A DNA stretch of 64,000 bases from positions 1-64,000 of the IMG/VR virus record IMGVR_UViG_3300048838_000540. One strand, written 5' to 3'. The notes beneath the pieces were generated by a model, which saw only the letters and a program-made list of their open reading frames with translations, searched no databases and was not told the DNA's origin. The DNA is from a virus. This document shows, one piece after another, positions 10,814 through 61,686 of this stretch; position 1 is the first letter of the stretch; every line of letters begins with the position of its first letter. The position numbers were made by a program, and so were the translations under genes.

Positions 10814-10890
10814 AAACGAGACGTAGGAATCGAACCTACCTTATCGAGATTTCACCTCGGCGCTATCACCAGATTTAGCAGCTATCTCAA
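10814..10890 (-). tRNA. tRNA-like gene, probable tRNA-Phe (anticodon GAA)
   Basis: On the - strand a cloverleaf can be drawn: T arm GTAGG-TTCGATT-CCTAC, anticodon stem CCGAG/CTCGA (one mismatch) with loop GTGAAAT giving anticodon GAA, and D stem GCTA/TAGC. The acceptor stem is weaker (TTGAGAT/GTCTCGT, wobble pairs and an end mismatch), and the spacing between acceptor and D stem is irregular. The 5' half overlaps the last 17 codons of the upstream reading frame on the same strand. Coordinates are good to a few bases. Confidence 0.55.
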
Positions 10891-11245
10891 CTAGTCTCTT
10901 ACGAACGTAACAATAGACAACAATTTCTTCGAGTGAATTGCCGATGTCCTCAACGATTAATCGACGAAGGTGCTTCGTTACCCTCTTAAGTGGCCAGTTC
11001 TTCCACGAGGTTTTGTGAGTCTCTCTGAATTTTTCATAGCTTAGCATTACAGACGTAAGAAAAGCTTTGAACGATGGGTCGCTTTGTTTAGCGATGTCCA
11101 TAATCAATTCGTGCTTAGTCATTCCACGTCGACGCAAGATATCTTCATATTCTTCTTGCGAAATCGCTAGCGTTCATAGCGCCTCATCGAGAGTCAGAGG
11201 CTGCTTATCGAGGAGCCAACTCCTCGCTTTGCTTAGTAGTTCCAT
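10841..11245 (-). CDS. Hypothetical protein, one TGA read as Trp
   Basis: 134 residues starting at the ATG at 11245, which overlaps the end of the upstream gene by 41 nt. An in-frame TGA at 11174-11176 lies in the segment LDEAL-W-TLAISQEEYEDIL; read as Trp it joins the N-terminal 23 residues to the rest. Residues after it are helical (ISQEEYEDILRRRGMTKHEL). The TAA stop lies inside the tRNA-Phe-like gene. No family recognised. Confidence 0.65.
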
Positions 11246-11756
11246 ACAGTTCGTCTTTTATATTAGGTTTGCTCCACACTTCAGCGTTCTTCGGTAGCTT
11301 AGTGCCCAGTTCGTCTTCGATCAGACGCTTAAGGATAGGGCTCTTATCTAGCACCAAACGATTACCATAGAGACGATGGCCCGGTATGTTCGGAAAATGT
11401 TTTACAACATAGTCACGATCGATATCCGAGTATCGTCCTTCAGTAAATGGTTTAACAATCTTTTCGATCTCTTGCTCACTCAGAGTAAATACATACAGCG
11501 TGTCACCCTCTATCGGTGAATATGCCTTTTCAAAGCGCTCAGAGTTTCGTAAGTAATTGTCGTACATGTCGGTAACAGGTCCGCGAAACGCAACGTAAAG
11601 CTTATCCCCTCAGGTCAACTCTTCGGCCATCAAAGTGGCGTCGCCTAAGTAGGTCCCAATATAGGACGGAGAATGTACAGCCATTTCGATTCCCAACAAC
11701 GGTCGTAGAAATTTCGCAGTTTTAGTGTCCGTTGGTGGTGTAAATAACTTTGCCAT
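11205..11756 (-). CDS. Hypothetical protein, one TGA read as Trp
   Basis: 183 residues from ATG 11756. TGA at 11610-11612 falls in EELT-W-GDKLYVAFRG; without decoding it the N-terminal 48 residues would be lost. The sequence on both sides has the same codon style and no other stop, which supports one gene. Function unknown; not recognised as a known family. Confidence 0.7.
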
Positions 11757-11830
11757 AGTAGATAAATTTACGTTTTGAGGTGCCCTAACTAATCACGACA
11801 CAACCGTTACAGTTAGGGTAGAGATCGTCA

Positions 11831-12052
11831 TTACCTCGAATGTTTCTTCGCGATATTGTAGGGTACGGTAATCTTAGAATGTAAGGCCTCCTCTACCTTC
11901 TCCAAAGGATGGATGCGACAGAGTGCTGCGTGCGCTTCCTTGTATTCGTTCTCTAAGCTCTTAAAGACTTTCTTATCTTCAGTTTCAAGGAGCTTCTTAT
12001 TGAGGGAGGCGAGTTCGTCAATCGCTAAAGCAAATCGTTGCGCTTTAGTCAT
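11831..12052 (-). CDS. Small helical hypothetical protein
   Basis: 73 residues from the ATG at 12052, chosen because it overlaps the stop of the upstream membrane protein gene by a few bases, the usual arrangement in this block. The sequence is mostly charged helix (LLETEDKKVFKSLENEYKEA), possibly a coiled coil. Function unknown. Confidence 0.55.
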   Translation of the reverse strand: MTKAQRFALAIDELASLNKKLLETEDKKVFKSLENEYKEAHAALCRIHPLEKVEEALHSKITVPYNIAKKHSR

Positions 12053-12353
12053 GTTTGATGAAATGTGTTTTAAGTGTTTGAGAATCGATTGGAAGGGAGT
12101 GACCACATATTCCCCAATCGCCTATGAAGCGTTCAGAGTTTTCGATGCTGTAGATGGTATCGCCTTTCCACACGAGTTGATCGTGCGCGCAGTTAGAGCA
12201 GTAATCGTCTTCGAGATAAACCCCGTATTTACATACGTACATGGAGGGATCTTCAGACACTTTTCGCTTTACGCAGACGATATCTGCTAGCGTTACGAGC
12301 ATTATGAGCAACAGCAGGATTATCAAAACTCGATTTAAGATAGCTACTATCAT
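12045..12353 (-). CDS. Membrane-anchored Cys-containing small protein
   Basis: 102 residues. Residues 3-27 are a strong hydrophobic helix (VLIILLLLIMLVTLADIV) that could be an anchor or uncleaved signal. The soluble part has cysteines in CKYGVYLEDDYCSNC and one more further on, possibly a metal site or disulfides. It starts at ATG 12353, overlapping the TGA end of the upstream JAB-domain gene. Function unknown. Confidence 0.6.
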   Translation of the reverse strand: MIVAILNRVLIILLLLIMLVTLADIVCVKRKVSEDPSMYVCKYGVYLEDDYCSNCAHDQLVWKGDTIYSIENSERFIGDWGICGHSLPIDSQTLKTHFIKHD

Positions 12354-12709
12354 TTGAGAACTTTTATTAGAGATTCGTGGTCATAGAGAAGGATCGAGTA
12401 GTCGGGCGTAATTACTCCGTAGTGAATATCGGGATGGCTGTCTTTCCAACCAGCAACGAAATAATGATCTTCTGGTGAAGGTAACAATATTCCGTTAGGA
12501 TGATTGTGTAAGAGCAGGCCTCTTCCGTATAACGCTAATGTAGGAGTGTCGATGATTACGCCCATACTACTAGACTCTAGCGTCAGGTTAATTCTGGGCC
12601 GCCAAGAGTGTTGGTCGTAGAACAGGTACGCAGACTCTAGCTGATCGATGAGTGGCCAGCTAAGGTGATGTTTTCTTAGGGCGGTTTGAATTAAGTGCGC
12701 TAGGTGCAT
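12350..12709 (-). CDS. JAB/MPN (RadC-like) metalloprotease-fold protein
   Basis: 119 residues. HNHPNGILLPSPED matches the JAMM signature H-x-H-x7-S-x2-D exactly, with the HNHP form typical of RadC-like JAB domains. Such domains bind zinc and can be isopeptidases; the RadC branch in phages and mobile elements has no proven activity. The gene begins right after the TAA of the exonuclease gene (TAAATG) and ends TGA-TAG, so it stops at once whichever way TGA is read. Family assignment is good; the substrate is unknown. Confidence 0.7.
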   Translation of the reverse strand: MHLAHLIQTALRKHHLSWPLIDQLESAYLFYDQHSWRPRINLTLESSSMGVIIDTPTLALYGRGLLLHNHPNGILLPSPEDHYFVAGWKDSHPDIHYGVITPDYSILLYDHESLIKVLK

Positions 12710-13723
12710 TTATCTAAATATTGAAAGTGGGATCTCGCCGTTAGCTTCGTAGACTTCTTTTGGGAGCTCCCAATAGTCTTTGCTGGAATGCCACCTGTAA
12801 GCCCTCAGGAGATCGTTAATACCGTGGTAGTACTTACTCCCCAAGCTACAGCCTTCAACGCCGCAGAAGCGCTCTGAGGGGCTCGTACGGTAAATTATAG
12901 CTGGGTTTACAGCGTCACTCTTCGATTCGACCACAATAAAGATGAAATCGAGTACTTCGTAGCCTTCATCCAAGTACTTTCTGATCGGCGACTCTTTCGA
13001 ATAGAGCGCTATTTCGTAGAACGCACACTGCCGATAGTAGCCGAAGTGAAGATACGAAGACGAGAATTCCCAGACACTTTTACCCGTAGTCTTTAGGTCG
13101 AAGGGCTGGATTGTCTTGGCAGCATGATCGATAAGGATGCCGTCTAAGAGCCCTTTACATTCAGTAACTTCTCCGTCTAACTCGTAGTCGAAATAGATAG
13201 CTACTTGGTGCATCAACTCCTTGTTAGGATCTTTGTTGACGAAGTAGGGTAGCGTATATTCGTTAGCGCCAATCGTTTCGACAGCCTTCTTGACTTGGAA
13301 GTACTCGTCTTTAGATAGCGCAATTTTATTTTCGTCGAGCTGTGTAAGTCACAAATAGTATTCGACGTGCTTCTCGTTAGTGAGAAACTGATCTACTACC
13401 CATGCTAAGCTCTTTTTGTAGCCAGCCTTATCGTAGGCCTCTTGATAGTCTTCGAGAGGAGATTCTCCAGTCAGTCCTTTAGGTAAGTTCTTGACGAACT
13501 TAAACATCAAGCCATAAGGCTTAGAGACGTCTCCTACTACGAAGTCATCCTTTCAACGCTCAGGGGAAGTTAGCAGACAGTCTACTGCTGAGCCGATACG
13601 CAAAGCAGTGTCGTCTTCGTCTTCAAATAGTTCTGGATTATTACGTCTGAGTCAAGCCTGCTTAGGGTTGAGCATCGACGATAGTAGAGAGTTGGAGATT
13701 CGATTTACTTTGAAGTAGTGCAT
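12710..13723 (-). CDS. PD-(D/E)XK exonuclease (RecE/Cas4-like), three TGA read as Trp
   Basis: 337 residues from ATG 13723. Three in-frame TGA codons (13652-13654, 13553-13555, 13349-13351) split it; read as Trp they give PKQA-W-LRRNNPELFE, SPER-W-KDDFVVG and EYYL-W-LTQLDEN. The nuclease core is KGLLDGILID followed by IQPFDLKTTGKS, the D...DxK pattern of the PD-(D/E)XK fold, and the N-terminal SNSLLSSMLNPKQA resembles the start of RecE-type exonucleases. A 5'-3' exonuclease would pair with the Erf annealing protein encoded at 18.5 kb. Confidence 0.8.
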
Positions 13724-13734
13724 TTTATAGGTTT

Positions 13735-13929
13735 TTATTTTAGTCCGAATTCAAACTCCCAAGACTTAGTCGACTCATCGTAGCGAAGCGTTTGCTCGAT
13801 ATAACATTCTTGTTTGTGAGTTTCATAGTATTTGTTCAGGAGTTCTATCAGATCAGCTCTGAATTTTTTGGCGTCTTCTTCAGTAGGAACGTTTACGGTA
13901 ACTTCGAATGAAAGGAGTATGCTACCCAT
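13735..13929 (-). CDS. Small hypothetical protein
   Basis: 64 residues, TAA stop, 8-nt overlap with the upstream nuclease gene. The mixed alpha/beta pattern (ILLSFEVTVNVPTEEDAKKF) suggests a small ferredoxin-like fold, but nothing specific is recognised. Confidence 0.55.
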   Translation of the reverse strand: MGSILLSFEVTVNVPTEEDAKKFRADLIELLNKYYETHKQECYIEQTLRYDESTKSWEFEFGLK

Positions 13930-14305
13930 GTTGTATAATTTCTATTGCTTGATCCAGTTCCTTCACGCTTTGCGGCAAGAAGAGCTGGATTTTTTTGTTT
14001 TTAAATTTGTGCTTTAGCAGTTTCCACTTGAGATTGAAGTCAGGTGTACGCATTCCTTTAGTCTCGATTATCCAGCCTTTCCCAACAAAGTCAGGAGTAT
14101 AAGTGATAGGTCGCACTTTAGTGGAGATCTCTTTGAAAACCTTTCGATTACGTTCTCAAGAGACTGCTTTAGTTGTGAAACCCTCGACAAGGAGTATTGC
14201 GTAAGGTTCGTACTCGAATTCTATGTTAGCGTCTACTAGCTTTTGGTAGCATAGTGCCTCGAACTTAGAGCGAAATTTCGTAGTCTTCGTGTTCTTGTAT
14301 TTCAT
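13922..14305 (-). CDS. DUF1064/resolvase-like endonuclease, one TGA read as Trp
   Basis: 127 residues from ATG 14305, inside the upstream gene. TGA at 14156-14158 sits in TTKAVS-W-ERNRKVFKE. Catalytic-type residues can be seen: KFEALCYQKL with a helical Glu, YTPDFVGKGWIIETKGM (D...ExK), then the MRTPDFNLKWKLLK helix that is characteristic of DUF1064-like phage nucleases (VRR/T7 endonuclease I type fold). It probably acts on branched recombination or replication DNA. Family call from motifs; confident about nuclease fold, less about substrate. Confidence 0.7.
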
Positions 14306-14456
14306 AGAGTTGAACTATGTCGTCGAGCTTTACTGAAGCTTCAGGTAGGTCTAAGCCCTCTTCAATCTCACCTAAAGTTAACGTGAAGTACTCGGCAAGA
14401 AGTTCAAGATCAATAGGATCGTCGTGTTCGATAGATATTTGAATGATTGTAGTCAT
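14265..14456 (-). CDS. Small acidic hypothetical protein
   Basis: 63 residues, very acidic (HDDPIDLELLAEYFTLTLGE and further Asp/Glu), ending in TAA within the next gene. First gene after a hairpin terminator. Function unknown; an acidic DNA-mimic or partner protein is possible but unsupported. Confidence 0.5.
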   Translation of the reverse strand: MTTIIQISIEHDDPIDLELLAEYFTLTLGEIEEGLDLPEASVKLDDIVQLYEIQEHEDYEISL

Positions 14457-14462
14457 GTCTTA

Positions 14463-14510
14463 TTTAAAATGGGGGGAAAGCCCTTCCTCGTTTGGAAAGA
14501 CTCTCCCCGG
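14463..14510 (-). terminator. Hairpin terminator between 14.5 kb gene and downstream genes
   Basis: On the - strand, CCGGGGAGAGTCTTTCC - AAACGA - GGAAGGGCTTTCCCCCC forms a long hairpin followed by CATTTTAAA. The next ATG lies a few bases further on. Confidence 0.6.
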
Positions 14511-14522
14511 CGGTTTCCAGCC

Positions 14523-15224
14523 TTATTTTCGCATAGCTACCATCCGCTGGATAACGGAGGAAGCTGCAAGCGCTGTGTCTTCAGTGAGCCCTGTGGTGAC
14601 ATCGACAACGTAGAATGCGTCAAGGAACCACACCATCTTTACGCGAATAAAGTCCGCTTCAAGAGTGAGTGCGATGTCCGTGGCCACTGTCTCCAGTGCG
14701 ACGACAGTATTCTCTGTGGGGTTGTGGTTGCCAGTGAAGGTCTCGAGGATGTGATCGCGACGTTGCGACCGATGGAGAACCGACTTGTGGCGGGTGCACG
14801 TGATCTCGACTTCGTACATGAAATCGTTCACCTGCTTGTACATGACCGACTTCGACCATTCGTGTTCAACCCGGAGAGTTTTTACGAGGTCGCTGTAATT
14901 CATGATGGTGTGTGTGCCCACAGGCGTGCGTAAAACAGCGGTCGAATTTTCGAACTTACGATCGTAAGCCAAGTAATCGAAACCTTCGGGTGTGTAGAGC
15001 TTCTCACCTCGCACAAACTCCGGTACAGGAACGTTTGCTTCCTGAAGTGTGCTGAACAACTCGGCCTTATTGTTGGTCAAGTTGAAGAGTGCGTTCGAAT
15101 TAACGTTCACACCTTTCCGTTGGGAGGGCTTTATCGGGCTGTTAAACAGCGCTGAAACGTGGACGCCGTGGCTGCCTAAGGTGCGGGCAGAAACTGGGCA
15201 CTTTGAATCGATGATAACGTGCAT
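14523..15224 (-). CDS. ATP-grasp-like protein
   Basis: 233 residues. NKAELFSTLQEANVPVPEF is the usual entry to an ATP-grasp fold (RimK/D-Ala ligase-like), VMYKQVNDFMYEVEI fits the ATP-binding strand, and ADFIRVKMVWFLDAFYVVDV aligns with the metal-binding end, where the canonical E-x-N is replaced by DVTT. Family members ligate a carboxylate to an amine using ATP; some phage versions probably modify proteins or small molecules. The missing Asn weakens the claim of activity. All Trp codons TGG. Confidence 0.5.
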   Translation of the reverse strand: MHVIIDSKCPVSARTLGSHGVHVSALFNSPIKPSQRKGVNVNSNALFNLTNNKAELFSTLQEANVPVPEFVRGEKLYTPEGFDYLAYDRKFENSTAVLRTPVGTHTIMNYSDLVKTLRVEHEWSKSVMYKQVNDFMYEVEITCTRHKSVLHRSQRRDHILETFTGNHNPTENTVVALETVATDIALTLEADFIRVKMVWFLDAFYVVDVTTGLTEDTALAASSVIQRMVAMRK

Positions 15225-15400
15225 TTGAAAAGATTGATGAATGTTTGTGGTATGGATGGTTCGTTAGCCATTGCGAGATAGAAAGAAGGAGCGCGGCGAC
15301 CCAGAGAGTGGATCAGCACTTCGCACATGATCGCCGCGTCCGCTTCATTTTCTTTCAGTCTCTTGATGGTTAGTCTTGTCATTAACGCTATTTGAGCCAT
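15176..15400 (-). CDS. Small hypothetical protein
   Basis: 74 residues. ATG 15400 overlaps the TAG of the glycosylase gene (ATGGCTCAAATAG) and the end overlaps the ATP-grasp gene by 49 nt, both typical of coupled genes here. No recognisable motif; an internal Met at residue 7 is an alternative start. Confidence 0.5.
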   Translation of the reverse strand: MAQIALMTRLTIKRLKENEADAAIMCEVLIHSLGRRAPSFYLAMANEPSIPQTFINLFKCTLSSIQSAQFLPAP

Positions 15401-16017
15401 GTAAATAGAGGAGGAACGTTAAAGTTATTTCCTGATAAAGGGGCTGGTGAACAACTCCTGAAAGTCGAATGTGAGCTATCGAGAAGATCACTTACGAAAT
15501 TTTGCACCTTAGATCCTAGCAACACGTGATGAATGTCGTTCGGAAGCGCCTTAATGATTTCGCTTGTGAACCTCTTCCAATAGAGTAAGTGGCTACCCCC
15601 TTCCCCAGCTCGCACTGTGAGTGCAAGGTTGAGCAGAAGGACTCCTTTACGAGGAAGCACGGAAAGGTATGAATCAGTTGCTTCGAACAGGTCTAGACCA
15701 GAGTCGGCTCGAATCTTGGTCAAGAGTCTGTGAAGTGCAGGAGCAATAGGATTACGAATGACGTGGTCATACGCTAGCCCATTACCAATGCCGTTAGCAT
15801 ATGGATCGACTCCATAGACAACAGCTTTCACGTCCTCGAAGGCGCACTCTTTGAACGCTCTAAACACAAGATCTTCCCTCGGATAAATAGTAAATCCTAG
15901 ATCTTTCTCGTGCTTAAGTTTCGGTGCGATTTCCACAAAAGCTTCCATCGCAAGAGGCGCAGCATCTGCCCAGTCACCTAGATGGACGCCCAGAAACTGT
16001 TTAGTTTTCGGGCTCAT
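15388..16017 (-). CDS. ung: Uracil-DNA glycosylase
   Basis: 209 residues, near the usual 220 of family 1 UDG. The catalytic water-activating motif is GVDPYANGIGNGLAYD (canonical GQDPYH), followed by the uracil-binding strand VLLLNLALTVRAGEGGSH (canonical LLLN..LTV..g....H), and SPAPLSG in the position of HPSPLS, where the His is replaced. It would remove uracil from DNA. crAss-like phages commonly encode UDG. The non-canonical second residue of GVDPY and the changed HPSPLS motif may lower activity. Confidence 0.85.
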   Translation of the reverse strand: MSPKTKQFLGVHLGDWADAAPLAMEAFVEIAPKLKHEKDLGFTIYPREDLVFRAFKECAFEDVKAVVYGVDPYANGIGNGLAYDHVIRNPIAPALHRLLTKIRADSGLDLFEATDSYLSVLPRKGVLLLNLALTVRAGEGGSHLLYWKRFTSEIIKALPNDIHHVLLGSKVQNFVSDLLDSSHSTFRSCSPAPLSGNNFNVPPLFTWLK

Positions 16018-16369
16018 CCGAACATCTGAATGTGTCGCTGTAAAGTACTTGGCTCCCGTAGGAGCAATCGGAGTATAGGGTTACATTAAACGAATCGAGT
16101 AGGCCTTCTGTGGTTTCATTTGCTGACAGCCAGTAGTCGAACTCTCCTACCGCCTTCTGTAATGCGAGGTCATAATTCGTGTAGCTAAATTCGCGTGTCT
16201 TTGTGTAGGCCGTCGGTGAATCTCTCCACCAGACAGTTGTTTCGTAGAAGTAAGAGCAGTTGTTAGCTGCGGCTTCGAGTTCGTCTACCTTATTACAAGT
16301 AGCGATGCCTACTCCAAGTAGTAGAATGATAGTTGTGGCAATTGCCCACAACAAGCTAGTAGGGGACAT
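16001..16369 (-). CDS. Signal-anchored periplasmic or membrane protein
   Basis: 122 residues from ATG 16369, which overlaps the TAG of the primase gene (ATGTCCCCTACTAG). Residues 5-26 (LLWAIATTIILLLGVGIATC) form a membrane anchor. The rest is a polar, Tyr-rich exported-looking domain with three further Cys. A longer start at 16423 is possible. Function unknown. Confidence 0.55.
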   Translation of the reverse strand: MSPTSLLWAIATTIILLLGVGIATCNKVDELEAAANNCSYFYETTVWWRDSPTAYTKTREFSYTNYDLALQKAVGEFDYWLSANETTEGLLDSFNVTLYSDCSYGSQVLYSDTFRCSDEPEN

Positions 16370-17336
16370 CGACTGTTGTTCTTGTCGAGAGGGTTCGTCC
16401 AAGGGCTTTTTTGATAAGCTCATACGTTCTGCGTCTTTTGTACCTTTTAAAATAGTCTGAAATGTCTTTGGGCCCTCGCGTAGCGATGTACGGGATTCTC
16501 AAAGATTCAGACAGAGAGATGTTCGACCGCATGCCAGCTTCATCCGAGTCCATAAAAAGGAACACATGGGCATACGACTCTTTTAGGCTCTTAACTGTCC
16601 GCCTGACTACTTCACTCTTAGCACTAACGATTTCACTGTTGAAACATACTGCAGGAAAGCCAAGTTCCCACAGTACCATTACGTCTTTTAACGATGAAGT
16701 TATGAAAACGAGTTTACCTCGTCTTGCCAAGCTTTCTAGCCCGCCAATATCTTCTGCCCCCGCGTTACCGAACCATTTCTGTTGAGATTTGGAAGCGAGC
16801 GGACGGTAGATTTTCAGATGACTGGAAGGAAATGCGTACGCGAAAACAGGGTTTGCTTTCGTTCCGCGCATAAAAAGGTTGCCATTCACGTAGACCGATC
16901 GTAACGAATGAACGTTAAATTTTGCTAGTGTCGGTGCAGTAATGCCGTAAGCATTTCAGTACCATCTATCCTCTTCCGACTCTTTGCGGATGGCCTCGAT
17001 GATTAAATCTTTTGCTTTAGGCGCGTCGAGTGGCTTGTTCGTCTCTAATTTAGGAGCCACATCTCTCAAGATCTTAATTGCAGAAGCGAAGTTGACCTTG
17101 TACTTCTCGATAATAACGTCGATGACACTGTACATTTTACCTGTACCAAAGTCGTGCAGGTATAGGATGCCTCTAGGCGACTCTCAGAATGAGCACGTAG
17201 GATTATCGTCCTTTCGAAAAGGGGAACGCACTAGACCAGTGCCTACCTTCTCGTTAAGGAAATACTCCATGAGTGCTACTTGCCCAACCGACTTCATAAG
17301 TTCGAACGGGTCCGTATAGTTAGAAGCCTTTATCAT
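16356..17336 (-). CDS. dnaG: DnaG-like primase, two TGA read as Trp
   Basis: 326 residues from ATG 17336. The N-terminal part SPFRKDDNPTCSF-W-ESP (TGA at 17184-17186) corresponds to the zinc-binding/primase entry region, followed by LHDFGTG. DRWY-W-NAYGIT (TGA at 16956-16958) matches the conserved yW..yGI...L.kF.V element, where Trp is canonical. The TOPRIM part shows VFITSSLKDVMVLWELGF and VFLFMDSDEAGMRS, with the acidic DxD pair. It makes RNA primers with the DnaB-like helicase at 18.9 kb. Strong case that TGA is Trp. Confidence 0.85.
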
Positions 17337-17577
17337 CGATTTGTAGATGTACGATTTTTTCGAATTTGTAGGTAGTAATCAAGTGGCACTCAATCTGCCA
17401 GATATCGTCTAGCTCTGTGTTGATTGCGAGCGTTACCTTTTGGACAGTAACTTTGGACTTAGAATCTTCCTTGTTCCGTAAGCCCGTAGCCGTAAAGGTA
17501 ACTAGCCGAACGTTCTTGAGGTACATCCCAAGCTCTGCAATCTTACCGCTATTTATTAGTTTGTCTATTCTTGACAT
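17320..17577 (-). CDS. Small hypothetical protein
   Basis: 85 residues between the primase and a small membrane protein, overlapping both. Beta-rich middle (KVTVQKVTLAINTELDDI) suggests a small barrel, possibly nucleic-acid binding, but no signature is seen. Confidence 0.5.
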   Translation of the reverse strand: MSRIDKLINSGKIAELGMYLKNVRLVTFTATGLRNKEDSKSKVTVQKVTLAINTELDDIWQIECHLITTYKFEKIVHLQIDDKGF

Positions 17578-17840
17578 TTGTCTAGACGTTTCTCAAGAAT
17601 CTCTGCGTGAAGCTTCCAAGAATTCAACAAGCGATTTGCTCTTAGTAAATCATTTGAAAGCTTTGCATTCTTTTCATTTAAAGCTTGAATTGTGTTTCCA
17701 TCTGAAGTGCGTCCTAACGAATAGACCAGTGTTGAAGCCGCTAGGAAAACAGCAGCTAAGCTAGTGTTATGGATAAACGCAAAAGTAGCAGCTGCGCACA
17801 AGGTCAGTATTAATCCGAGTATAGATATAAATATTCTCAT
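17565..17840 (-). CDS. Small membrane protein with C-terminal coiled coil (Rz-like?)
   Basis: 91 residues. Two hydrophobic helices (residues 4-22 and 26-42), then a heptad-rich helix (IQALNEKNAKLSNDLLRANR). The topology resembles an inner-membrane spanin or a membrane-tethered scaffold, but no lysis gene is adjacent. Its stop overlaps the next start (ATGTCAAGAATAG). Confidence 0.5.
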   Translation of the reverse strand: MRIFISILGLILTLCAAATFAFIHNTSLAAVFLAASTLVYSLGRTSDGNTIQALNEKNAKLSNDLLRANRLLNSWKLHAEILEKRLDKCQE

Positions 17841-17908
17841 AGATTGATTTGTTTAGTTGAGAGTCTAGTGTCGAACTGTAAGCCCTTACTAAAGCTGACT
17901 CCCACCAA

Positions 17909-17932
17909 TAAAAAAGGGTGGTTGCCCACCCC
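17909..17932 (-). terminator. Rho-independent terminator after 18.0 kb gene
   Basis: On the - strand GGGTGG-GCAA-CCACCC followed by a run of six T. Placed just downstream of the 17942 stop codon. Confidence 0.75.
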
Positions 17933-17941
17933 TCTTCATCG

Positions 17942-18472
17942 CTATGCTGCAATGCCAGCAGCTTCAAGTTTCTCTTTCTCCTTCTTCGTCCAGTAGAGCG
18001 AAGTAGGGAACCCTTTCATATAAGAGTCGATGAACTTGTAGTCTGGAATCTTCGCGTAAGTTTTGTCGCCCTTCTTATCGGGCATGACTTTTAGACAGAC
18101 TGCTACGCCTTGCCATGCTTCGAGTTCTTTAGAAGCAAGCTCCATAAAGCTGTCGTAATCCTCTGCTTCGAGGGTGCCAGCGGCTTCTCCTAAGAATACT
18201 CGTAAGACGTCTACTACGATGCGCACGTTCTTATCGATCGAGCGCTGGAGAGCTTCAGAAGGAGACTCACCGTCGTTAATAAAGTTGGCGTTAGGTTCGA
18301 ACAGTCGTTTGTGAATGAATTGGCCGGCCTCGTTACCGAAGCGTAAATCCCAGTAGTTAGGGCCTGACTGAAGGCCTAAGAATTGCAGGTCACCTTTATC
18401 GTGGATGCCCGCTTGAATACCTGCTCCGGAAGAAGGTAGTTCATTGTCGAAGTATAATTTCGCTTGGATCAT
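17942..18472 (-). CDS. Probable ssDNA-binding or recombination partner of Erf
   Basis: 176 residues, 11 nt after the Erf gene. Starts IQAKLYFDNELPSSGAGIQAGIHDKG and has a Trp/aromatic-rich middle (NYWDLRFGNEAGQF) and a Lys-rich end. In phage recombination operons the gene next to Erf/Rad52-like proteins often encodes a single-strand binding or accessory protein; that role is inferred from position only. It is the last gene before a terminator. Confidence 0.45.
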   Translation of the reverse strand: MIQAKLYFDNELPSSGAGIQAGIHDKGDLQFLGLQSGPNYWDLRFGNEAGQFIHKRLFEPNANFINDGESPSEALQRSIDKNVRIVVDVLRVFLGEAAGTLEAEDYDSFMELASKELEAWQGVAVCLKVMPDKKGDKTYAKIPDYKFIDSYMKGFPTSLYWTKKEKEKLEAAGIAA

Positions 18473-18483
18473 GATCGTGTAGA

Positions 18484-51559: not shown

Positions 51560-51581
51560 ATTTTCACAAGCTTAATTACTC

Positions 51582-51677: not shown

Positions 51678-51692
51678 CAAAATTCAACAACT

Positions 51693-51935: not shown

Positions 51936-51940
51936 TCACT

Positions 51941-52129: not shown

Positions 52130-52374
52130 CAGCCAACCTATCGTTTCTAGACAACGAAGTACTGCTCTATCACTCGACACTCCAACTAGAGAGTGTGAAA
52201 GATGTCGACAAAGCGCTAGACGCAGAGCTCTCAAACTTAAAGATGGCGATATTCGCTCACATCTACAAAAACCGTCCTTCAGAGTGGCACGAACCAACGC
52301 CGCTTCCTAACACAAACTTACTCAATGACAAAGAAAGTTATTACAGGCCCATCACTCCAGACGTCACTACTTAA
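52123..52374 (+). CDS. Small hypothetical protein
   Basis: 83 residues, helical ([20 protein letters not shown]). Its end overlaps the GroEL start by 50 nt. Function unknown. Confidence 0.5.
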
Positions 52375-54916
52375 TGGCGTAAATACTATTGCTAATGCAG
52401 TAGGATCAACTCTTGGCCCACTAGGCCGTAACGTAGTTATCGAAACTCCGTATGGCGCAACAACTGTTACTAAAGATGGTGTTACAGTTGCTCAACAAAT
52501 TACTCTCGAAGATCCTCTCGAGAACTTAGCTGTTCAAATTATTAAGCAGGCATCAGAGCGCACAGCTTCTATAGCTGGCGACGGACCACAGCCCCTTTAT
52601 TCGAAAGTTCTCACACCAACTGGGTGGACAACTCTAGGTGAACTAAAAGTTGGAGATACCATTTGTGGTACAAATGGTACTACACAAAAGGTCGTAGGCT
52701 TTTACCCTAAAGGACCCTTACCTTTATATAAGGTTATTTTTTCGGACGGAAGAACAGTTGAATGTTCGGAAGACCACTTGTGGACCGTGACCACTAATTA
52801 CGGAAAACAAAAAACTCTGCCTCTAAGTGAGCTTATAAATCAAGGTTTGTCGTTAATTAACGACGACGGCCACAATAAGTACAAGTTTTTTGTTCAAACT
52901 ACTGAAGTAGAATTTGATGAAAAACCCCTCCCCTTAGATCCTTACTTTCTAGGAGTATTGCTTGGAGATGGTTCCCTAAGTGGAAGTGGTGCAATTGAGC
53001 TCTCGTTAGGCCTCAAGAAGGCACACATACTACAAAAGCTTCTTTTGCCAGAAGGCATGAGTTTTACGATCGCTTTAGATGAATCTAAAAATTATATTAG
53101 AGTTAGATTTCAAGGTGCTGATAAAAATGGGAAAAATCTAAAAGACATTCTTTTAGATTTAAATTTGCTCGGAACACATAGCGCTACAAAATTTATTCCG
53201 GACCTATACCTCTATTCGAGCTTAAAATCTCGCGAAGCCCTTTTACAGGGTCTCGTAGACACTGATGGCCATGTTAATCTTCGTGGCAAATTCGAGTTTA
53301 GTACTATAAGCGACCAACTATCTGCCAACTTTCAAGATTTGGTACGCTCACTGGGCATTCAGACGCACTACACAAAGTTAGACCGAACATATTCTGGCGG
53401 ATATTCTGTAAACCCAGTCCATCGGATAGTAGAATTAAAAGGGTACAAACACGGCATCAAAATAGTAGATGTTCAACCTCAAAACAGATTTGAGGAGATG
53501 GTCTGTATTAAAGTTTCAAACGATGACCATTTGTACATCACAGATGAATATGTCGTCACACATAATACAACTACTGCAACAGTACTCGCGCAAAAGCTTT
53601 ATTCCGAAGCACTTAAACTAGTTAACTCGGGTGTCGCCCCTATCCACATCAAGAACGATTACGAAGCCTACTTAAAAGCTATCGCCCCTCTTATCGACGA
53701 TAATACGCTCCAGATTACGACGCCTCAAGACACGTACCAGATCGCACTTATTTCTGCGAATAACGATCCGACTATTGCATCTCTTATTTCGACAGCTATC
53801 GAATACGTAGGCAAGGATGGCTCGATTACACTCGAAGAGTCTAAGACTGGCGAGTCGTATGTAGAGCTAGTAGACGGTACTTCTTTCGAGCGCCCTTACG
53901 CTTCTCCGTACTTCGTCACTAATCCGCCTAAAGGGACAGCTGAACTCACCAATCCGCTCATCTTTATTACGGATAAGAAACTTCGCTACAATCAAGAGCT
54001 TCTTCCCGTACTCAACTTAGCAGCCGATAACTCACGTCCACTAGTTATTATTGCAGACGATATCGAAGGTCAAGCTCTTCAGACGCTCGTCATCAACAAG
54101 CTTCGCGGTACTATCGAGGTGCTAGCTATCAGAGCTCCTTCGTACGGTGAGAACCGTCTCGAAGTACTTAAAGACCTCGCAGCCCTCACTTCAGCGAACC
54201 TTATTACAGAGCTCTCTGGAACACGTATCGAAGATGTTAAGCTCACTGATTTAGGTGAAGCGGCTAAAGTGATTTCTTCGCGTCACCAAACTATCATTGT
54301 TGATGGTGTTCAAGATCCCACCCAAATCGAAGCTCGTGCGAGTACAATCACACAGCTTCTCGCTCAACATCAGCCAGACTCATATTTCTATAAGCAGCTC
54401 TCTACTCGACTAGCTAAGCTCACTGCTAAGGTTGCAGTGCTCAATGTAGGAGCACCTACAGAAACCGAGCTTAAAGAGCGCAAAGCCCGTGTTGACGACG
54501 CACTTCGAGCTACTACAGCAGCTATTAAAACTGGTTTCGTAGTTGGTGGCGGTACGCTTCTCGCTAAGCTCTCGACTACCCTCCCTAACGATCTTTCGTC
54601 TAAAGCCTTCGCACTAGCTCTTCAAGAACCTCTTCGTCGAATAGCTGAAAATGCTGGACAATCTCCGTCTCTCGTCCTTTCAAAAGTACTTGAGAACCCT
54701 TCGATTTCATTCGGTTATAACGCTTTAACTGACTCCTATACAGATCTTATCGAAGACAAGGTTATCGATCCTGCACTCGTAGTGAAGCAAGCGCTACTCT
54801 CCGCAGTTTCAGCAGCAAACATGCTCATCCTATCTTCGACTGCAGTCTACAATGTAGATCGCACTCCTCCTTATTCTCCAGGCTCTCTAAATGATTTTGA
54901 ATCGCACGAATCCTAA
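52325..54916 (+). CDS. groEL: GroEL-type chaperonin interrupted by an intein
   Basis: 863 residues; without the intein 536, a normal GroEL length. N-terminal [30 protein letters not shown] and [13 protein letters not shown] are textbook GroEL, with the nucleotide-binding GDGTTT motif split by the intein after GDG. Later landmarks include [22 protein letters not shown] and the equatorial [11 protein letters not shown]. The C-terminal GGM tail of host GroEL is absent. With the GroES-like gene at 47.4 kb it would form a phage-encoded folding chamber. TAA stop; overlaps the terminase start by 26 nt. Confidence 0.9.
52586..53566 (+). other. Class 3-type intein with LAGLIDADG endonuclease in GroEL
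   Basis: 327 residues, from Pro after AGDG to HN before TTTATV. First residue is Pro, not Cys or Ser. Block [23 protein letters not shown], block [12 protein letters not shown] with Trp, block [15 protein letters not shown] with Cys, block G YVVTHN with Thr: the W, C, T set that marks class 3 inteins, which start splicing from the block F Cys. Endonuclease motifs are [10 protein letters not shown] and [12 protein letters not shown]. Confidence 0.8.
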
Positions 54917-57900
54917 CGACTTCATAGTCGAGATTCCGCAGCATCATCCGCTTTCTTCAGCATATTTATCGTTCTGACGCGAGCAAAAAAGACGTTCAAT
55001 AGAAGGTTATTGGGTAGGTGGCATTTGAATGCCTCCTGCCCTTTACTATTATGCGAACTTCGGAACAATCAAGAAGAACCGCTCTAAGTATTCAGCTTCC
55101 TCCAAGATCTATGCGCGGCCTGACTTACGAGACATCGAATGGGATCTATTCTATCTCTATACAGAAGCGCGAGGATTCTCAGGATTTTCTCTCGACCCCG
55201 TCTACTCCTCTAACAAAGCTCTACTTGACGCAGAAGTAACTGACGATATTCTTCGACTTCACCTGCCATCTACACTCAAGGCTGACGGATCTCGCAAAAC
55301 ATTCGTTCCAGCTCGCGAGTATATGCGCGCTCTACACCCTACCCAACTAGGCGCACCTCTTTTCGAAAATGAAAAGCAGAACCTTCTTCTTCTCGGTACT
55401 CGAGATCTCGGCAAGTCGTATGCTGTAGGTGTAGGCATGGTTGGCCACATGTTCCTTTTCGATGGCGCAACTTCTTATTCAGAGTCTCGCGAAGAGCTCT
55501 CTCCAGCTGAAGTTCTTGTAGGAGCATCTGTTTCAGACAAATCTCGAGATCTACTTAAAAAAACAAAAGACTCGTTCGATTTCTTACCGGGCAAGCAAAT
55601 CATCGCCTCACGCACTTACCCTTCTCCTTTCTCTAAACAGTACACAGGCTCGTGAGCAGTTAATGCTGATATCAAGGCCGAATATAAAAAGAAGTCTGAT
55701 GGGCGATGGGAGACAGTGGGCTCCCGCTCTACGATTAAGCATCGCTCTTTCAACGAAAACCCGTTTGCTGCACAAGGTACTCGCCCTGACTTACTTGTCA
55801 TCGAGGAAGCTGGTCTAGCTTCAGAGCTCAAAGACATCTTCGTGCACACTGTCGACACACTGCGTCGAGGTCTAACTAAGACTGGGACATTGCTTTGCTT
55901 GGGTTGTGTCGTAGCTGGCACTAAAGTTTGAACATCTAAAGGTAAACTTCTAAACGTCGAAGATCTTACCGTAGAAGATGGAATCTTAGGTTACTCTGGA
56001 TCAGCAATTGTACCTCTACCAATCACTAACATTAACCCAATCGCAGTAAAACAGTGTGTCAGAATTACGACCGAAGGTAACAACGTTATCGAAGCCTCTA
56101 TAGACCACCCATTTTTAGCCTCTTCTCGTAAAGAACGGCTTTCTAACACAACGTACAATTATAATTTCAAGCAAGCCGCTACACTAAACGTAGGTGATTA
56201 CTTAGCGCTAGCTAACGAAATCCCGTTTTTTGGAGAAGTCGAGGAAAAAGACGCTTACTTAATAGGGCTGATGCTCGGTGACGGCTACTTTAAAGGCTCG
56301 TCAGTTTCGATCGATAACGACGAAGTCTACAACTTTATTTCGACTAACTACGAAACGTCTACACACAAAAGGTACGAAACTAAAAAAGGGACGCTGTACT
56401 ACGAGCTCTACATAAAAGGGATTAGTCAAAAGCTAAAAACTCTAGGGCTAACGGATCTTACTAAAGAACAAAAAGATTTTCCGCTTACAGCACAAGAATT
56501 TTCGAAAGAGTCTTTAGCACTTCTGCTAGCAGGTTGCTTCGACTCAGATGGAAATGTCAATAGGTCTAAAAAGACAACACGTGTTGTTCTAACTAATATT
56601 TCGTTAAAACTACTTCAATCGGTTAAATGGGCCCTTTTAAAATTTGGCATCCATTCTTCGATCTACAAAGAGAAACGAAACACGAAGCCCCCTAAAGGCT
56701 ACGAAAATCAGCTACCGCATATTTACAGACTCTACATTTCTAGAGACGCAGACGTCGCCACGTTTAAGCAGTACATTCCAATTAAGCATTCTAAAAAAGT
56801 CGAAACTCTAGGCCAATTTACTCCAGGTAATCGTCAAGTTGGAAAACACTTAGGAGTCTTCACACTTACAAACCGCCATGAAGACGAAACATTCTTAGCC
56901 GATAACTCGTCGATTTCTAACTTTAGATTCGTACGCGTGACTTCTGTCGAGGCAATTGGTGAAAAAGAAATCTACAACCTAACTGCAGGAGAATATCATA
57001 ACTATCTAGCCAATGGCTTCATCACCCATAACACAGGTGGAGACATGCAGAAGGGCACGCTCGCAGCTTCCGAAATGTTTTACGAGCCCGAGAAATACGA
57101 CTTCCTTTCTTTCGAAGATACTTACGAGTCTCGAGGCAAGATAGCATATTTTGTGCCCGCCTACTATTCTCTCGATAAGTTTCGAGACGATTGGGGTTAC
57201 GTAGACATTCAAAAAGCTACAGAAAGCCTACTGCTTAAACGCAAGAAACTAGCTGGTGATTCTGGAGGTTCGTTCGCTCTCGACCAAGAGATGCAGTATC
57301 GTCCTCTCGTACCTTCCGAGATGTTTCTTTCGAAAGCAGCTAACATATTCCCGTTCGCAGAAATACGCCGCCGTCTCTCAGAACTACAGACTACGAAAGA
57401 ATACGAAATGTACGAGCACAAGGTCAACCTATATTTTGACCCTTCTTCACAGTATAATGGTGTGTCGTACGCTATCGACCCCTCGCTAAATCCGATCACA
57501 CGTTTCCCGTGAGACTCTGACGACAGAGAAGGTGCAGTAGTTATCTACGACTTCCCGCACTTAGAAGATGGTAAAGTGCCTCCTGGCGCTTATATCATAG
57601 GATGCGACCCTTTTAAAGATGATTCACCTGACGGGCCCTCACTCGCCGCTGTCTACGTCATGAAGACGTCTAAGTACTTTGCGACGATAGGCCACGACGA
57701 AATAGTAGCATCTTACATAGGTCGTCCATACATGGGTAAGAATGCTGTCAACGAGATCCTGCATAAACTAGCGCTCTTCTACAACGCTAAAATTTACTTC
57801 GAAAATTCTGTCGGCAACGTAAAAGACTACTTCGAAAAAGTTCGACGCCTCGACCTACTCGCTACGCAGCCAACTACAATTTTCAACAAAAAAGCTTCGT

Positions 57901-58277
57901 TCCTTTCGAATCAATCGTTCATCTATGGCTACCCCATGCCAAACCAAAAAGTTAAGTGGGAAGCTCTGCAGTATCTACGAGCTTGGCTACTTACAGAACG
58001 TTCAGACTCTAAAAGAAACTTAGACCTCATCAAAGATCCAGCCCTTCTTCAAGAACTTATTTCGTTTAACCTCGACGGAAACTTCGACAGAGTCATGGGC
58101 CTCACTGGCTGCATAATAGGGCTCGAAGAAATATATAACCTACAAAGACGCACCGAGCATTATCAAAAAGAATCTTCGGAGCTAGACAAAGAATTTACTA
58201 GACTTATTGTCAACAACAAAAAACTTTTCCATGAAAATTTTTCCAAAACAAAGGCTAGCGTACTCTGAGAAAATTAA
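54891..58277 (+). CDS. terL: Terminase large subunit with intein, six TGA read as Trp
   Basis: 1128 residues (752 after splicing) from ATG 54891. TGA codons at 54975, 55026, 55653, 55929 (inside the intein), 57510 and 58266. The first two give YLSF-W-REQKRRSIEGYW and GGI-W-MPPALYYY, where Trp is expected in crAss-like TerL. ATPase: Walker A-like LLGTRDLGKSYAVG, Walker B LLVIEEAGL, coupling motif LG|TGGD. Nuclease: YIIGCDPFKDDSPDG and FENSVGNVKDYF. The last TGA (VL-W-EN) moves the stop to TAA 58277. Packages DNA into proheads. Confidence 0.9.
55905..57032 (+). other. Intein with LAGLIDADG endonuclease in terminase
   Basis: 376 residues starting at Cys (CVVAGTKV-W-TSKGKLLNVEDL) and ending NGFITHN before Thr of TGGD. 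Endonuclease motifs are LIGLMLGDGYF and LLLAGCFDSDGNV. The in-frame TGA at 55929-55931 in block A means the intein itself depends on the altered code. It is inserted at the ATPase coupling motif. Confidence 0.85.
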
Positions 58278-60624
58278 GTCGGACTTCAAATGGGCGAAAG
58301 AAACTATCGACCACTTGCTTCTTAATTTTACTCTCGAGGCTACCGTAGTCAATCAATATCACACTGACTACTTCAGAAAGCTTTCTAATTACCAGCTCTA
58401 TAACAATCAGCTAAACCAAAAAGATTTCGAAAAAGAGTGTAACCCACTCGGCATCGATGTCGGGCAATTTGCTGACGAGATTCAACCGTACAACAAAACG
58501 TACAACAAGATTCAAGTCTTGCTAGGTGAGGAGCTGCGTCGTCCGTTCAACTTCCGAACTATACTTGTCAATTCAGAAGGAGTTCGTTCGAAGATCGCAC
58601 ACCGTAACGCACTAATTCGTCAATACGTAGAAACGCAAGTAAAGAAAACTCTAGCTCAATTCTCTGAGCTCTATTCTGAAGAACTGCTAGAAGAAGCTTC
58701 GACTCCGACGCTCGACCCTTCGCAGATAGATGTCTACATGAAGACTACGTATCTCGACGCACGCGAACGACTTTCTTCGCAGATGCTGCGCTACCTACTC
58801 CGTTCACTCGACATCAAAGACAAACAGTCTGATGGCTTTAAACACGCATGCATTGCTGGCGAAGAACTTGTCTACGTGTCTTCATTTCGTAACGAACCAG
58901 TACTCGAGATCGTTAATCCGCTCGGATTCTTTTCGCACAAATCACCCGAGACTAAGTGAGTTCAAGACTCTCTTTTCGCAGGCTATCGTACGTATCTCAC
59001 TCCTTCAGAAGTCCTAGATCGTTATGGCGACTACTTGACAGAAGAACAACGTAAGACCATCGACTCTACTTCGATGGCACCATCAGGCATCAAGTCTGAC
59101 ACTATCTCTGGAGCACATCGTTACGGTCACGAAAACATGGATCGCAACGAATCGACAACTCCTTTCTTCGAAGGTTCGTATTCACCGTCATCCGTAGAAG
59201 ACTGGCTAGTCGAGCACGTAGAATGGCGCTCACAACGTAAGGTAGGCTTTCTCATCACCACTCCACTAGACCAAGAACCTTCTGAGCAGATCGTATCTGA
59301 AGACTTCGAAGTTCCGTCTATCGCCTCGAAGACAACTATCTTAAAAGAGTACAATCGAAAGCAAACGTCGTACAATTGGACAGACGAGCTAGGCACTTCT
59401 TACTCACTTCACTGGTCGTGGATTCCTGAAGTTTGGCAAGGTACTCGTATCGGTCGCACTATCTACTGTATGATAGGCCCTAAAGAAGAGCAGTTCCGTT
59501 CGCAAGATAATCCGTACGAAGTAAAGCTCGGTTATCATGGCCTGGTCTATAATGCGATGAACGCTTCGTCTATCTCGATAATGGACCGCATGAAGCCTTT
59601 TGCTTATCTCTACTTTATCGTGATGCACAAGCTCAAAAAGCTCATTGCTCAAGACCAAGGCAAAGTGTTCCCTATCGACGTTTCGATGATAGATCCTAAG
59701 ATAGGACTCGAGAAGACACTCTACTACCTAAAAGAACTCAACTTAGACTTCTATAACCCGCTTCAAAATGCTGAAGTTCCTTCAGTAGCTCAGCGTGGTA
59801 AAGTTACTTCTGCGATCGACATGTCGAACATGCAGCACATACTTAACTACGTATCCTTACTCGGCGCACTAGATCAGCAAATTTCTGAAGTGGCAGGCGT
59901 AACGCGCCAACGTGAAGGGCAGATTCTACCTACTGAAGCTGTTACTAATGCAGCAGCTAACGCACAAATGTCGTCAGTGATTACGCAGATTTATTTTCAG
60001 GCTCACGATAAACTCTGGGAAAAGATTCTCACTTCTCTTCTTCAAGTAACACGCCAAGCTTGGAAAAACAAGAAGATCGTGAAGCAATATGTTCTCGACG
60101 ATCTATCAGTAGCTACTCTCGAAATGTCTGAAGACGCGCTTCAAGATGCAGACTTAGGGGTTTTTGTTACGGACTCTGGTAAAGAAGTCGAAATGTTTGA
60201 CGCGCTCAAGGGCATGGCTGATGGATTACTCAACACAAACCGAGCTACGTTCTCAGACCTCATCAAGATGTACAAATCTAACTCTGCAGAAGAACTTCAA
60301 AAGCTTATCGAAGATTCTGAAGACAAGATGCGCGAGCAAGAATCTCAAAGTCAACAGCAACAGATCGAAGCTGCTCAACAGGCTCAACAAGCTGAACAAC
60401 AGTTCGAACTCGAGAAGCAAGCGCGTGAGCACGAAAATCAAATTACTCTTGCTGAAATTAATTCGTTCCGTTTCCAAGATAACCAAGACATAAATAGCAA
60501 TCAAGTACCTGACCAACTTGAAGTAGCTAAGCTTAAATACGACCAAGAATTCAGAAACCGTAAGCTCGACTTAGAAGAACGCTCTGTTAAAGTGAAAGAA
60601 AAACAAGCTTCTAAACCTAAATAA
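58231..60624 (+). CDS. Portal protein, one TGA read as Trp
   Basis: 797 residues from ATG 58231, inside the terminase gene end. TGA at 58957-58959 gives SPETK-W-VQDSLFAGYRTYLTPSEV, a portal-type segment (LTPSEVLDRYGDYL). Middle part with VPSVAQRGKVTSAIDMSN and EVAGVTRQREGQ is like crAss-like portal proteins, and the C-terminus is a long Gln-rich coiled coil. Position right after TerL fits. Forms the dodecameric DNA gate of the capsid. Confidence 0.8.
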
Positions 60625-60693
60625 AGCTATACTCTTCCCAAGTCCTTACATTTTCTCACATCTTATTTTACTCCTGACTCAACTTAATTTTAC

Positions 60694-61686
60694 ATGGACA
60701 AGCAAATAACACTCGACGACATCTTCGACGATAACTATACTTCACCAGAACCAATCGAAGAACCAATCGAAGAACCCATCGAAGAACCCATCGAGCCTAC
60801 TGACATCGACGACACCTCAGAAGTACGCAAAGCATACTTCGATTTCTTAGTCGAAAATGAAGTTCTCGATCTCCCTTCAGAATTCGAATACGACGGTTCT
60901 TCCGAGAAACTTCAAGAAGCGCTAGAGCTAGCCAAAACAAACCAACAGAAAAAGATCGTCGAAAGCTTTTGGAACACTCTTCCCGAGGATCTACGCGAAG
61001 CATACGAATTTGTTTCGGCTAACAACGCAACTCTCGAAGATTACTACGAATCTCGCCTACAAAATCCAGCTACTCTAGACCTTTCGCGTCCAGAGAATCA
61101 GCGCAAAATTGTCGAACGATTCTTAAAAGAAACTACGCGCTTTTCACCCGAAAAGATTAAACGCACCATTACGTCGTACGAAGAAGACGGCATCTTAGAT
61201 GCTGAAGCGTCGGATGCAGCTGCTGAACTCGAAGTGCTTTTCGAACAGCAAAATGAACAGCGTCAACAACAGCTCGCAAAACAAGCTGCAGATGCTGAAA
61301 AGCAACGCAAAGAATATACTGAAGAGCTAGTGAAAGCTATCAATTCTTCGAGCTTTATTCATCCGACTCGTCGCGAAAAAGTGCGTTCCTTTTTCTTTTC
61401 ACCGATCAAACAAAACAACGAGCAGACAACAGCTTTCAACCTTACAGTGCAGAACATTCTTGCTAACCCAGAACATCAAGCTCAACTCGCAGATTTACTT
61501 TTAGATTATTCTGCGTCGCAAGGATTTTCACTCGAGCGTTTCGAGAAACGTGTTAAAGCTCGCGCAACATCTACGTTTAAAGACGATCTCGATCGAGCTC
61601 TCGATCCTAAACGTAAAGCAGGGACTCCTGCAAAAGTTAATAAAACTGACACTACAGAATTTTTAGAAAACTGACTTAAAAACTAA
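60694..61686 (+). CDS. Scaffold-like protein before the capsid gene, last TGA read as Trp
   Basis: 330 residues. Acidic N-terminus with EPIEEPIEEPIE repeats, helical Gln/Glu-rich middle (EQQNEQRQQQLAKQAADAEK) and a basic C-terminal helix, the profile of a capsid scaffold. The frame passes a TGA at 61672-61674 and ends at TAA 61684-61686, which overlaps the capsid ATG (TAATG), the same junction style as elsewhere. That supports TGA as sense here. Confidence 0.7.

Follow-up and report, generated by a model that had tools for sequence, protein, structure and literature searches.

Tryptophan and stop readings of TGA in separate gene blocks of a crAss-like phage and its relatives

The stretch analysed here, a window of 64,000 nucleotides, is nearly all of the 64,016-bp IMG/VR record IMGVR_UViG_3300048838_000540, a phage genome in which the codon TGA is used in two ways. 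TGA encodes tryptophan in the replication (middle) and structural (late) genes, and it ends genes in a block lying between them, block 3. Both regimes are conserved in four phage lineages. We propose, at a probability of about 0.7, that the genome uses two codes, assigned to genes by expression class, with a phage tRNA of anticodon UCA as the switch. The genes of block 3, presumed early, would be translated by unmodified host ribosomes, on which UGA terminates. The phage would then supply a UGA-reading tRNA with anticodon UCA (candidate gene at 51581–51677), and from the middle phase onward UGA in replication and structural genes would mean tryptophan, with TAA and TAG staying stops. On the simplest reading, UGA would remain a stop until this tRNA accumulates. 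We infer that block 3 is early and that the UCA tRNA does the reading, carries tryptophan and changes in level during infection.

A longer record, IMGVR_UViG_3300048837_000398 (G001, 103,011 bp), contains the window with three base differences and one 27-bp in-frame deletion. Its ends share a 127-bp repeat, and we therefore regard the genome as complete and circular, at 102,884 bp. The deletion relative to G001 lies at window position 36275, within an Ala/Pro-rich block 3 protein.

TGA as tryptophan and as stop in one genome

Outside block 3, TGA is read as tryptophan. Twenty-four sense-TGA sites fall in 16 genes of the window, 15 on the minus strand (11176–29161) and nine on the plus strand (48320–61672), which comes close to a preliminary description made from the letters alone, in which at least 17 genes or gene halves needed TGA to be tryptophan. 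The blocks and their TGA codons are as follows.

10841–29287, minus strand: middle (replication) block, TGA as tryptophan (PHROGs, Pfam, codon check, relatives); primase, DnaB-like helicase, superfamily 2 helicase, DNA polymerase A, exonuclease, a UDG-like protein (Pfam match below the curated cut-off) and others
11176, 11612, 13351, 13555, 13654, 14158, 16958, 17186, 19715, 20201, 23147, 23705, 27120, 28662, 29161, minus strand: sense TGA codons of the middle block
46578–63998, plus strand: late block, TGA as tryptophan (PHROGs, alignments, Pfam, codon check); GroES-like protein (weak match), GroEL (with an intein), TerL (with an insert), portal and major capsid region
48320, 49427, 54975, 55026, 55653, 55929, 57510, 58957, 61672, plus strand: sense TGA codons of the late block
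29205–45738, minus strand: block 3, standard code, presumed early (gene finder, counts, read-through tails, homologous gene ends, Pfam); AAA ATPase, two glucosaminidases and a MoxR-like ATPase adjoining a VWA-like gene
29733, 30356, 35044, 37205, 39352, 40767, 42254, 43077, 43316, 43792: TGA stops of block 3
37205–38362, minus strand: VWA-like protein, ending at TGA 37205 in an ATGA overlap with the next gene

A custom gene finder, free to take each TGA as either sense or stop and prone to cutting genes at TGAs close to their C-termini, called 18 of the 24 sites as sense. At five others (14158, 29161, 54975, 55026 and 61672) it made no sense call, but relatives align across them; site 11176 has support from neither source.

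Alignment with the relative G006, whose TerL is 57% identical, identified the residue encoded. Across the complete genome, the G006 residue at aligned sense-TGA sites is tryptophan at 16 of 23 and never serine (0/23), the other seven being T, Q, I, F, E, Y and H, once each; the window-only subset gives 13 of 19. As a control, TGG codons align with G006 tryptophan at 81 of 155 positions, this control keeping all rows, whereas 10 of 33 rows of the site table were dropped as antisense or shadow frames. More distant phages (G007–G011) have tryptophan at 26 of 38 aligned places, and the still more distant Cellulophaga phage phi14:2 at 3 of 8. The TerL tryptophans at 54975, 55026 and 55653 are invariant in six aligned sequences; the codons at these columns are TGA in the window phage and TGG in G007–G011, and G006 has TGA at two of them. 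The converse comparison, of TGA codons in middle and late genes of relatives with the window residue (whose own codon is partly TGA), gave tryptophan at 18/32 places for G006, 13/26 for G012, 12/24 for G013, 7/12 for G015, 12/18 for G019, 4/7 for G021, 5/7 for G022, 7/10 for G023 and 2/2 for G027, with serine once in G012 and once in G013. TGA therefore occupies conserved-tryptophan positions in conserved genes, as in phages known to read it as tryptophan.

Within block 3, TGA is a stop. Its 25 called genes end in TAA (10), TAG (5) or TGA (10), and their bodies contain no sense TGA alongside 48 TGG codons; all ten ends listed above were verified as TGA codons. The change of code falls between the last sense TGA at 29161 and the first TGA stop at 29733. 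Reading through to the next stop would add 44 codons at 35044, 70 at 37205 and 27 at 39352; the first two tails score as non-coding and the third is neutral. Conservation of the VWA-like gene with G006 stops at TGA 37205 and does not continue beyond it, and the G013 homologue has its TGA end several residues later, again where the next gene starts in another frame. The name VWA comes from reading this sequence beside the MoxR-like gene, a Pfam search having given no match. In the second glucosaminidase, G012 and G013 have TGA where G006 and G018 end in TAA, and the longer window copy ends in TGA 40767. The preliminary description had seen no sense TGA between 29.3 and 45.7 kb, about ten TGA-ended genes there, a sharp boundary near 29.3 kb, and about 40 and 70 residues of shadow sequence beyond 35044 and 37205; all of this held up.

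Elsewhere in the whole genome only four genes were called with TGA ends (12350, 21731, 58266 and 61672). Each has TAA or TAG within at most three codons, and at 61672 a relative has tryptophan.

Conservation of both regimes among relatives

A scan of 83 TerL loci, earlier ones included, found sense TGA in the N-terminal part of the gene in six and none in 77. The six are three copies of the window phage, G005, G006 and L105 (one codon). Scans with portal and DnaB gave nearer relatives, with sense TGA in these genes at 14 of 63 loci. Four recoded lineages emerged (G001, G006, the G012 group and G015), for which long contigs were oriented and annotated alike. Counts for early, middle and late genes, in that order, are given as sense TGA over TGA plus TGG codons, and as TGA stops over genes.

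G001: sense TGA 0/48, 12/69, 15/201; TGA stops 10/25, 2/26, 2/49
G006: sense TGA 0/42, 10/60, 26/139; TGA stops 7/17, 2/21, 0/38
G012: sense TGA 2/36, 14/56, 13/146; TGA stops 6/23, 4/22, 0/30
G015: sense TGA 0/40, 16/58, 0/123; TGA stops 5/26, 2/26, 0/36

Pooled over the four lineages, with one of the four G012-group contigs taken, sense TGA amounts to 2/166 in early, 52/243 in middle and 54/609 in late genes (early versus middle, p = 5e-11), and TGA stops to 28/91, 10/95 and 2/153 (early versus rest, p = 1e-9); these p-values assume independent genes and codons, an assumption that relatedness breaks. The outgroups G016–G018 use the standard code, with sense TGA at 1/898 and TGA stops in every block (49/254). 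Late TGA stops are fewer in recoded genomes (2/153) than in the outgroups (22/103; p = 6e-8). Taken genome by genome, the contrast in TGA stops gives p = 1e-4 for G001, 2e-4 for G006, 0.06 for G012 and 0.02 for G015. For the other G012-group contigs, early versus rest, p is 0.036 (G013), 0.11 (G014) and 0.54 (G020), a weakness due to TGA ends that the gene finder places in middle genes of these contigs.

In G012, G013, G014, G020 and G015, one boundary gene with sense TGA was reassigned from the early to the middle class after the counts had been seen; without this shift the early sense-TGA calls would be three in G012 and one in G015. The shifted genes of G012 and G015 are homologous (42% and 40% identity) to window gene 28970–29287, which precedes the boundary. 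This gene has sense TGA in three lineages; at the window's site 29161, G012 has TGG and G015 has TGA. For middle and late genes, alignment-based counts that do not depend on the gene calls of the relatives agree with the figures above. Block 3 genes of relatives were likewise free of sense TGA in G006 and G015, with two calls in G012.

Recoding is not centred on late genes: middle genes are recoded as much or more, and in G015 recoding is confined to replication genes. It is denser in middle than in late genes in G001 (p = 0.03), G012 (p = 0.005) and G015 (p = 2.5e-9), and equal in G006 (p = 0.84). The late genes of G024, G025 and G026 also look unrecoded, with TGA at 1 in 39, 0 in 33 and 0 in 38.

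Sense TGA that is rarer in late (54/609) than in middle genes (52/243), and absent from late genes of G015 (0/123), would also be expected if TGA were weakly read as tryptophan at all times, by a near-cognate host tRNA-Trp or a poor suppressor, and highly expressed genes avoided it; the three recoded contigs without a recognisable UCA tRNA, described below, fit this too. Demand of this kind leaves unexplained why early genes have kept their TGA stops (28/91) and late genes have lost them (2/153, against 22/103 in the outgroups), and we consider it unlikely.

A candidate opal suppressor tRNA

The proposed switch would be a tRNA gene upstream of GroEL, located by synteny with G006, whose tRNA is readily detectable.

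51581–51677, plus strand: candidate opal suppressor tRNA, upstream of GroEL (Rfam, folding, cloverleaf scan)
49830–49913, plus strand: tRNA-Ser(UGA), called by ARAGORN
8478–8760 of contig L032 and 81789–82035 of oriented G012: transfer-messenger RNA (tmRNA), near the UCA tRNA

The candidate has a long variable arm and an extended D stem with a four-base loop, resembling tRNA-Sec, and its anticodon loop, CUUCAAA, gives the anticodon UCA. Folding gives a cloverleaf whose variable arm has seven pairs (z −2.77, equalled by 1 of 200 shuffles), and the Rfam tRNA-Sec model (RF01852) scores the sequence at 26.8 bits, under the cut-off of 47. ARAGORN missed this gene and called only tRNA-Ser(UGA) in the window; the anticodon stem-loops of the two are one base apart. 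The same interval of G006 holds an ARAGORN-called UCA tRNA whose variable loop has four bases.

A custom cloverleaf scan of 23 contigs found exactly one UCA tRNA each in G001, G006, G012, G014 and G021, all on the plus strand upstream of GroEL, that is, at the same place in three recoded lineages and the fragment G021. Their variable regions comprise 24–26 bases, except in G006 (4 bases), and by eye, as all these sequences were compared, the window tRNA has variable-arm and T-arm sequence in common with that of G021. The scan gave no UCA tRNA in the standard-code contigs G016–G018 or the fragments G007–G011, and its background with eight other anticodons was 2 matches in 96 genome-strand scans. 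A pattern scan with the 17-base anticodon arm hit two records only, both copies of the window phage.

The body of the tRNA points to serine and the codon positions to tryptophan, with which it would presumably be charged. Bacterial tryptophan identity lies in G73, the anticodon and the first acceptor pairs, and serine identity in the variable arm and G73 (PMC9976931). On a seven-pair reading of its acceptor stem the candidate has G73; a stem of eight pairs, with a C-G pair added, is also possible. Its Ser- or Sec-like variable arm, D stem and anticodon arm would suit a tRNA loaded with serine, or a true tRNA-Sec, in which case UGA would mean serine or selenocysteine. The aligned codons speak otherwise: UGA columns carry tryptophan at 16 of 23 places and serine at 0 of 23, the invariant TerL tryptophans in six sequences among them; TGA in G012, which also has a long-arm tRNA, falls on window tryptophan 13 times in 27 and on serine once; and G006 keeps tryptophan at the same columns with a short-arm tRNA. 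No relative scored above the tRNA-Sec cut-off of 47 (0/8 and 0/16, best 38.9), and the alignment of UGA columns with tryptophan likewise argues against selenocysteine use. We regard a serine or selenocysteine meaning as very improbable. Searches of six phage genomes gave no TrpRS/TyrRS-type synthetase (PF00579, 0/6; SerRS was not searched) and no phage release factor (PF00472, 0/6).

Several further RNA features were noted. In G006 and the G012 group, a phage-encoded tmRNA lies no more than about 1 kb from the UCA tRNA; no tmRNA match above the cut-off was found in G001, G015, G016 or G018; where present, it could clear ribosomes reading through UGA stops. A tRNA-like sequence at 49972–50057 (plus strand, 32 bits) has a Leu-like D arm and no normal anticodon arm. 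A partial tRNA-like sequence at 10823–10879 (minus strand), just below the Rfam cut-off, lies at the edge of the minus-strand block and overlaps the 3' end of gene 10841–11257. When nine contigs, including G015, G019 and G023, were searched for tRNAs under relaxed settings, the output was noise apart from one tRNA of G015 (75082–75160, minus strand), whose enlarged anticodon loop of about 15 bases holds CUUCAA.

Genome context, known systems and significance

TerL, portal, the giant RNA polymerase gene and the genome layout place the phage with the Crassvirales. The N-terminal part of TerL is 40% identical over 89% of the query to that of phi14:2, assigned to the Crassvirales, Steigviridae, in its record; two phi14:2 copies were the only phage matches when the window TerL was searched against the GenBank collection. 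Portal and TerL match phrog_6547 and phrog_6681, which we take to be crAss-type families. The assembly is circular, about 100 kb, with two opposed gene blocks, as in Crassvirales, and a giant virion RNA polymerase gene with a DxDxD motif lies beside the structural genes.

2–5950, plus strand: 3' part of the giant virion RNA polymerase gene, of 5,471 codons in the complete genome
5951–10504, plus strand: second giant gene, associated with the RNA polymerase by position; 0 TGA, 15 TGG

The larger gene resembles the gp66 region of phi14:2 (E 4.5e-8), and its motif SDYDVD, near 2066, has the counterpart SDFDID there. The preliminary description had found all tryptophan codons of the giant genes at 2–10504 to be TGG. 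That is correct for the window part (0 TGA, 24 TGG) and partly an effect of the window edge: in the complete circle the larger gene has two sense TGA and 32 TGG codons.

Transcription of crAss001 proceeds from early (regulators) through middle (replication) to late (structure) genes (PMC8375218, PMC10136315), and the order of modules here agrees with this published order for Crassvirales. Block 3 sits between the divergent intergenic region and the replication module, which matches the place of early genes in Crassvirales and is why we take it to be early. The opposite strand, of late type, carries the tRNA gene close to its head. An earlier suggestion, that block 3 would be expressed before the UGA-reading tRNA accumulates, fits this layout and the UCA tRNA since found. 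Two glucosaminidases, enzymes one might expect late, sit in block 3, and none of its genes matched phi14:2 at E 1e-3. No class-specific motif emerged when block 3 was scanned for promoters and repeats (14 promoter-like sites versus 20.5 in shuffles), and terminator-like sites were in excess (33 versus 18.4).

Two further accounts concern block 3 itself. Were the whole genome in code 4, the ten TGA ends would be tryptophan codons shortly before true stops. Seven of the ten tails are indeed at most 11 codons long, and in G001 and G006 the next stop follows early TGA ends more closely than random TGAs (median 6 versus 19 codons, p = 0.004). These TGA-ended genes (29733–43792) often have TAA or TAG a few codons on, possibly as back-up stops, although the signal is weak when compared with TAA- or TAG-ended early genes (p = 0.095). 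We reject a uniform code 4 as scarcely tenable, given the two long non-coding tails, the conserved end at 37205 and the lack of any TGA inside block 3 gene bodies; the TGA stops in early genes also speak against a code-4 host. Recent acquisition of block 3 from a standard-code phage, not yet recoded, as the preliminary description had also offered, would suit its somewhat higher G+C (0.46–0.51 per 2 kb versus 0.40–0.47 elsewhere) and fast evolution but is ruled out, and is of negligible probability, because block 3 is old and syntenic: in G006, G012, G013 and G014 the interval from the replication module to the late genes holds homologues of several of its genes (glutamine-amidotransferase-like, two glucosaminidases, VWA-like and MoxR), some of which occur there in G015, G016 and G018 too, and the same code boundary recurs in each recoded lineage.

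Several observations weigh against a code switch by expression class. The Ser- or Sec-like tRNA body would predict serine rather than tryptophan. Eight recoded contigs either yielded a UCA tRNA or contain the gp48–GroEL interval; in three of them, G015, G019 and G023, cloverleaf and relaxed searches identified none (in recoded G013, G020, G022 and G027 that interval is wholly or mostly missing from the contigs). Conversely, ARAGORN calls a UCA tRNA, on the other strand and with no Rfam support, in L071, whose TerL uses only TGG. The absence of sense TGA from block 3 compared with other genes of the same genome is modest (p = 0.02), and few early-gene residues align between lineages (484–946 per recoded genome). 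A few TGA stops are called in middle genes, some of them cut C-termini, as in the G012 exonuclease and primase, where alignments extend past the called end. Two early sense-TGA calls remain in G012, one of which fuses two genes across a TGA at a conserved end. Finally, the TerL of phi14:2 has W, F and L at the three invariant sites, F and L in gapped stretches.

Code switching by class is known in crAss-like phages; what is unusual here is the distribution, with replication genes included, and the candidate tRNA. The crAss-like phages of Yutin et al. 2021 (PMC7886860) share with the present clade the virus order, TGA read as tryptophan, recoding of part of the genome, suppressor tRNAs in some, and group I introns and inteins in core genes. 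They are human-gut phages recoded mostly in putative late genes only, and published crAss-like recoding lies mainly in late structural and lysis genes (PMC7886860, PMC10136315), whereas here replication genes are recoded at least as much as late genes, in G015 exclusively, and the tRNA was missed by ARAGORN. TGA in replication genes is not without precedent, PolB of a Zeta phage being one case (PMC7886860). The Zeta crAss-like phage Lera (PMC12386605) likewise has TGA as tryptophan in TerL, RNA polymerase and helicase, and a Sup-TCA tRNA of predicted isotype Trp or Arg. It differs in its group, in its 26 tRNA genes and in that its recoded genes of known function are mostly structural, plus three of four lysin genes; the available part of its description mentions no long variable arm for the Sup-TCA tRNA. 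Borges et al. 2022, as told in PMC11210395 and PMC10136315, proposed that code switching regulates late, lytic genes. Regulation by code is the common element, but in the present phage the switch would precede the replication genes. Long variable arms occur in tRNA-Sec, selC* tRNA-Cys and allo-tRNAs, and the UCA anticodon in most tRNA-Sec and some selC* tRNAs (PMC7609411); those tRNAs carry selenocysteine, cysteine or mainly serine and alanine, whereas the present codon stands at tryptophan positions. Among the open-licence PubMed Central papers listed, judged by title and start of abstract, none described phage opal suppressors of this type or such code 4 layouts.

Core genes of the phage also contain inserts. 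The GroEL gene (52325–54916) is split by an intein with a LAGLIDADG-type homing endonuclease, and TerL (54891–58277) is interrupted in frame by about 350 extra residues, probably an intein, near the start of which lies sense TGA 55929. The major capsid region (61.7–64 kb and on in G001) is split; it has matches to group I introns, scoring below or close to the Rfam cut-off, and, by reading of the sequence, homing-endonuclease-like genes. In a crAss-like relative, L061, a GOLLD RNA lies upstream of the terminase (3204–3593, minus strand, 222 bits).

The usual answer to what recoding is for is the timing of late genes and lysis (PMC11210395, PMC10136315). The recoded class here includes replication genes, and therefore lysis timing cannot be its sole function. 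With standard-code outgroups and, in G015, recoding of replication genes only, the clade offers a graded series for the spread of a code change. A tentative scenario is that the clade shifted UGA to tryptophan starting with replication genes, by means of a long-arm, Ser- or Sec-like opal suppressor charged by the host tryptophanyl-tRNA synthetase (TrpRS). If so, G015 would be an intermediate, its late genes having dropped TGA as a stop (0/36) and not yet adopted it as sense (0/123). For the many recoded phages without a suppressor tRNA, a host-encoded or extremely divergent phage tRNA has been suggested (PMC7886860); were this scenario true, some apparent cases of recoding without a suppressor would be due to divergent tRNAs that a standard finder overlooks.

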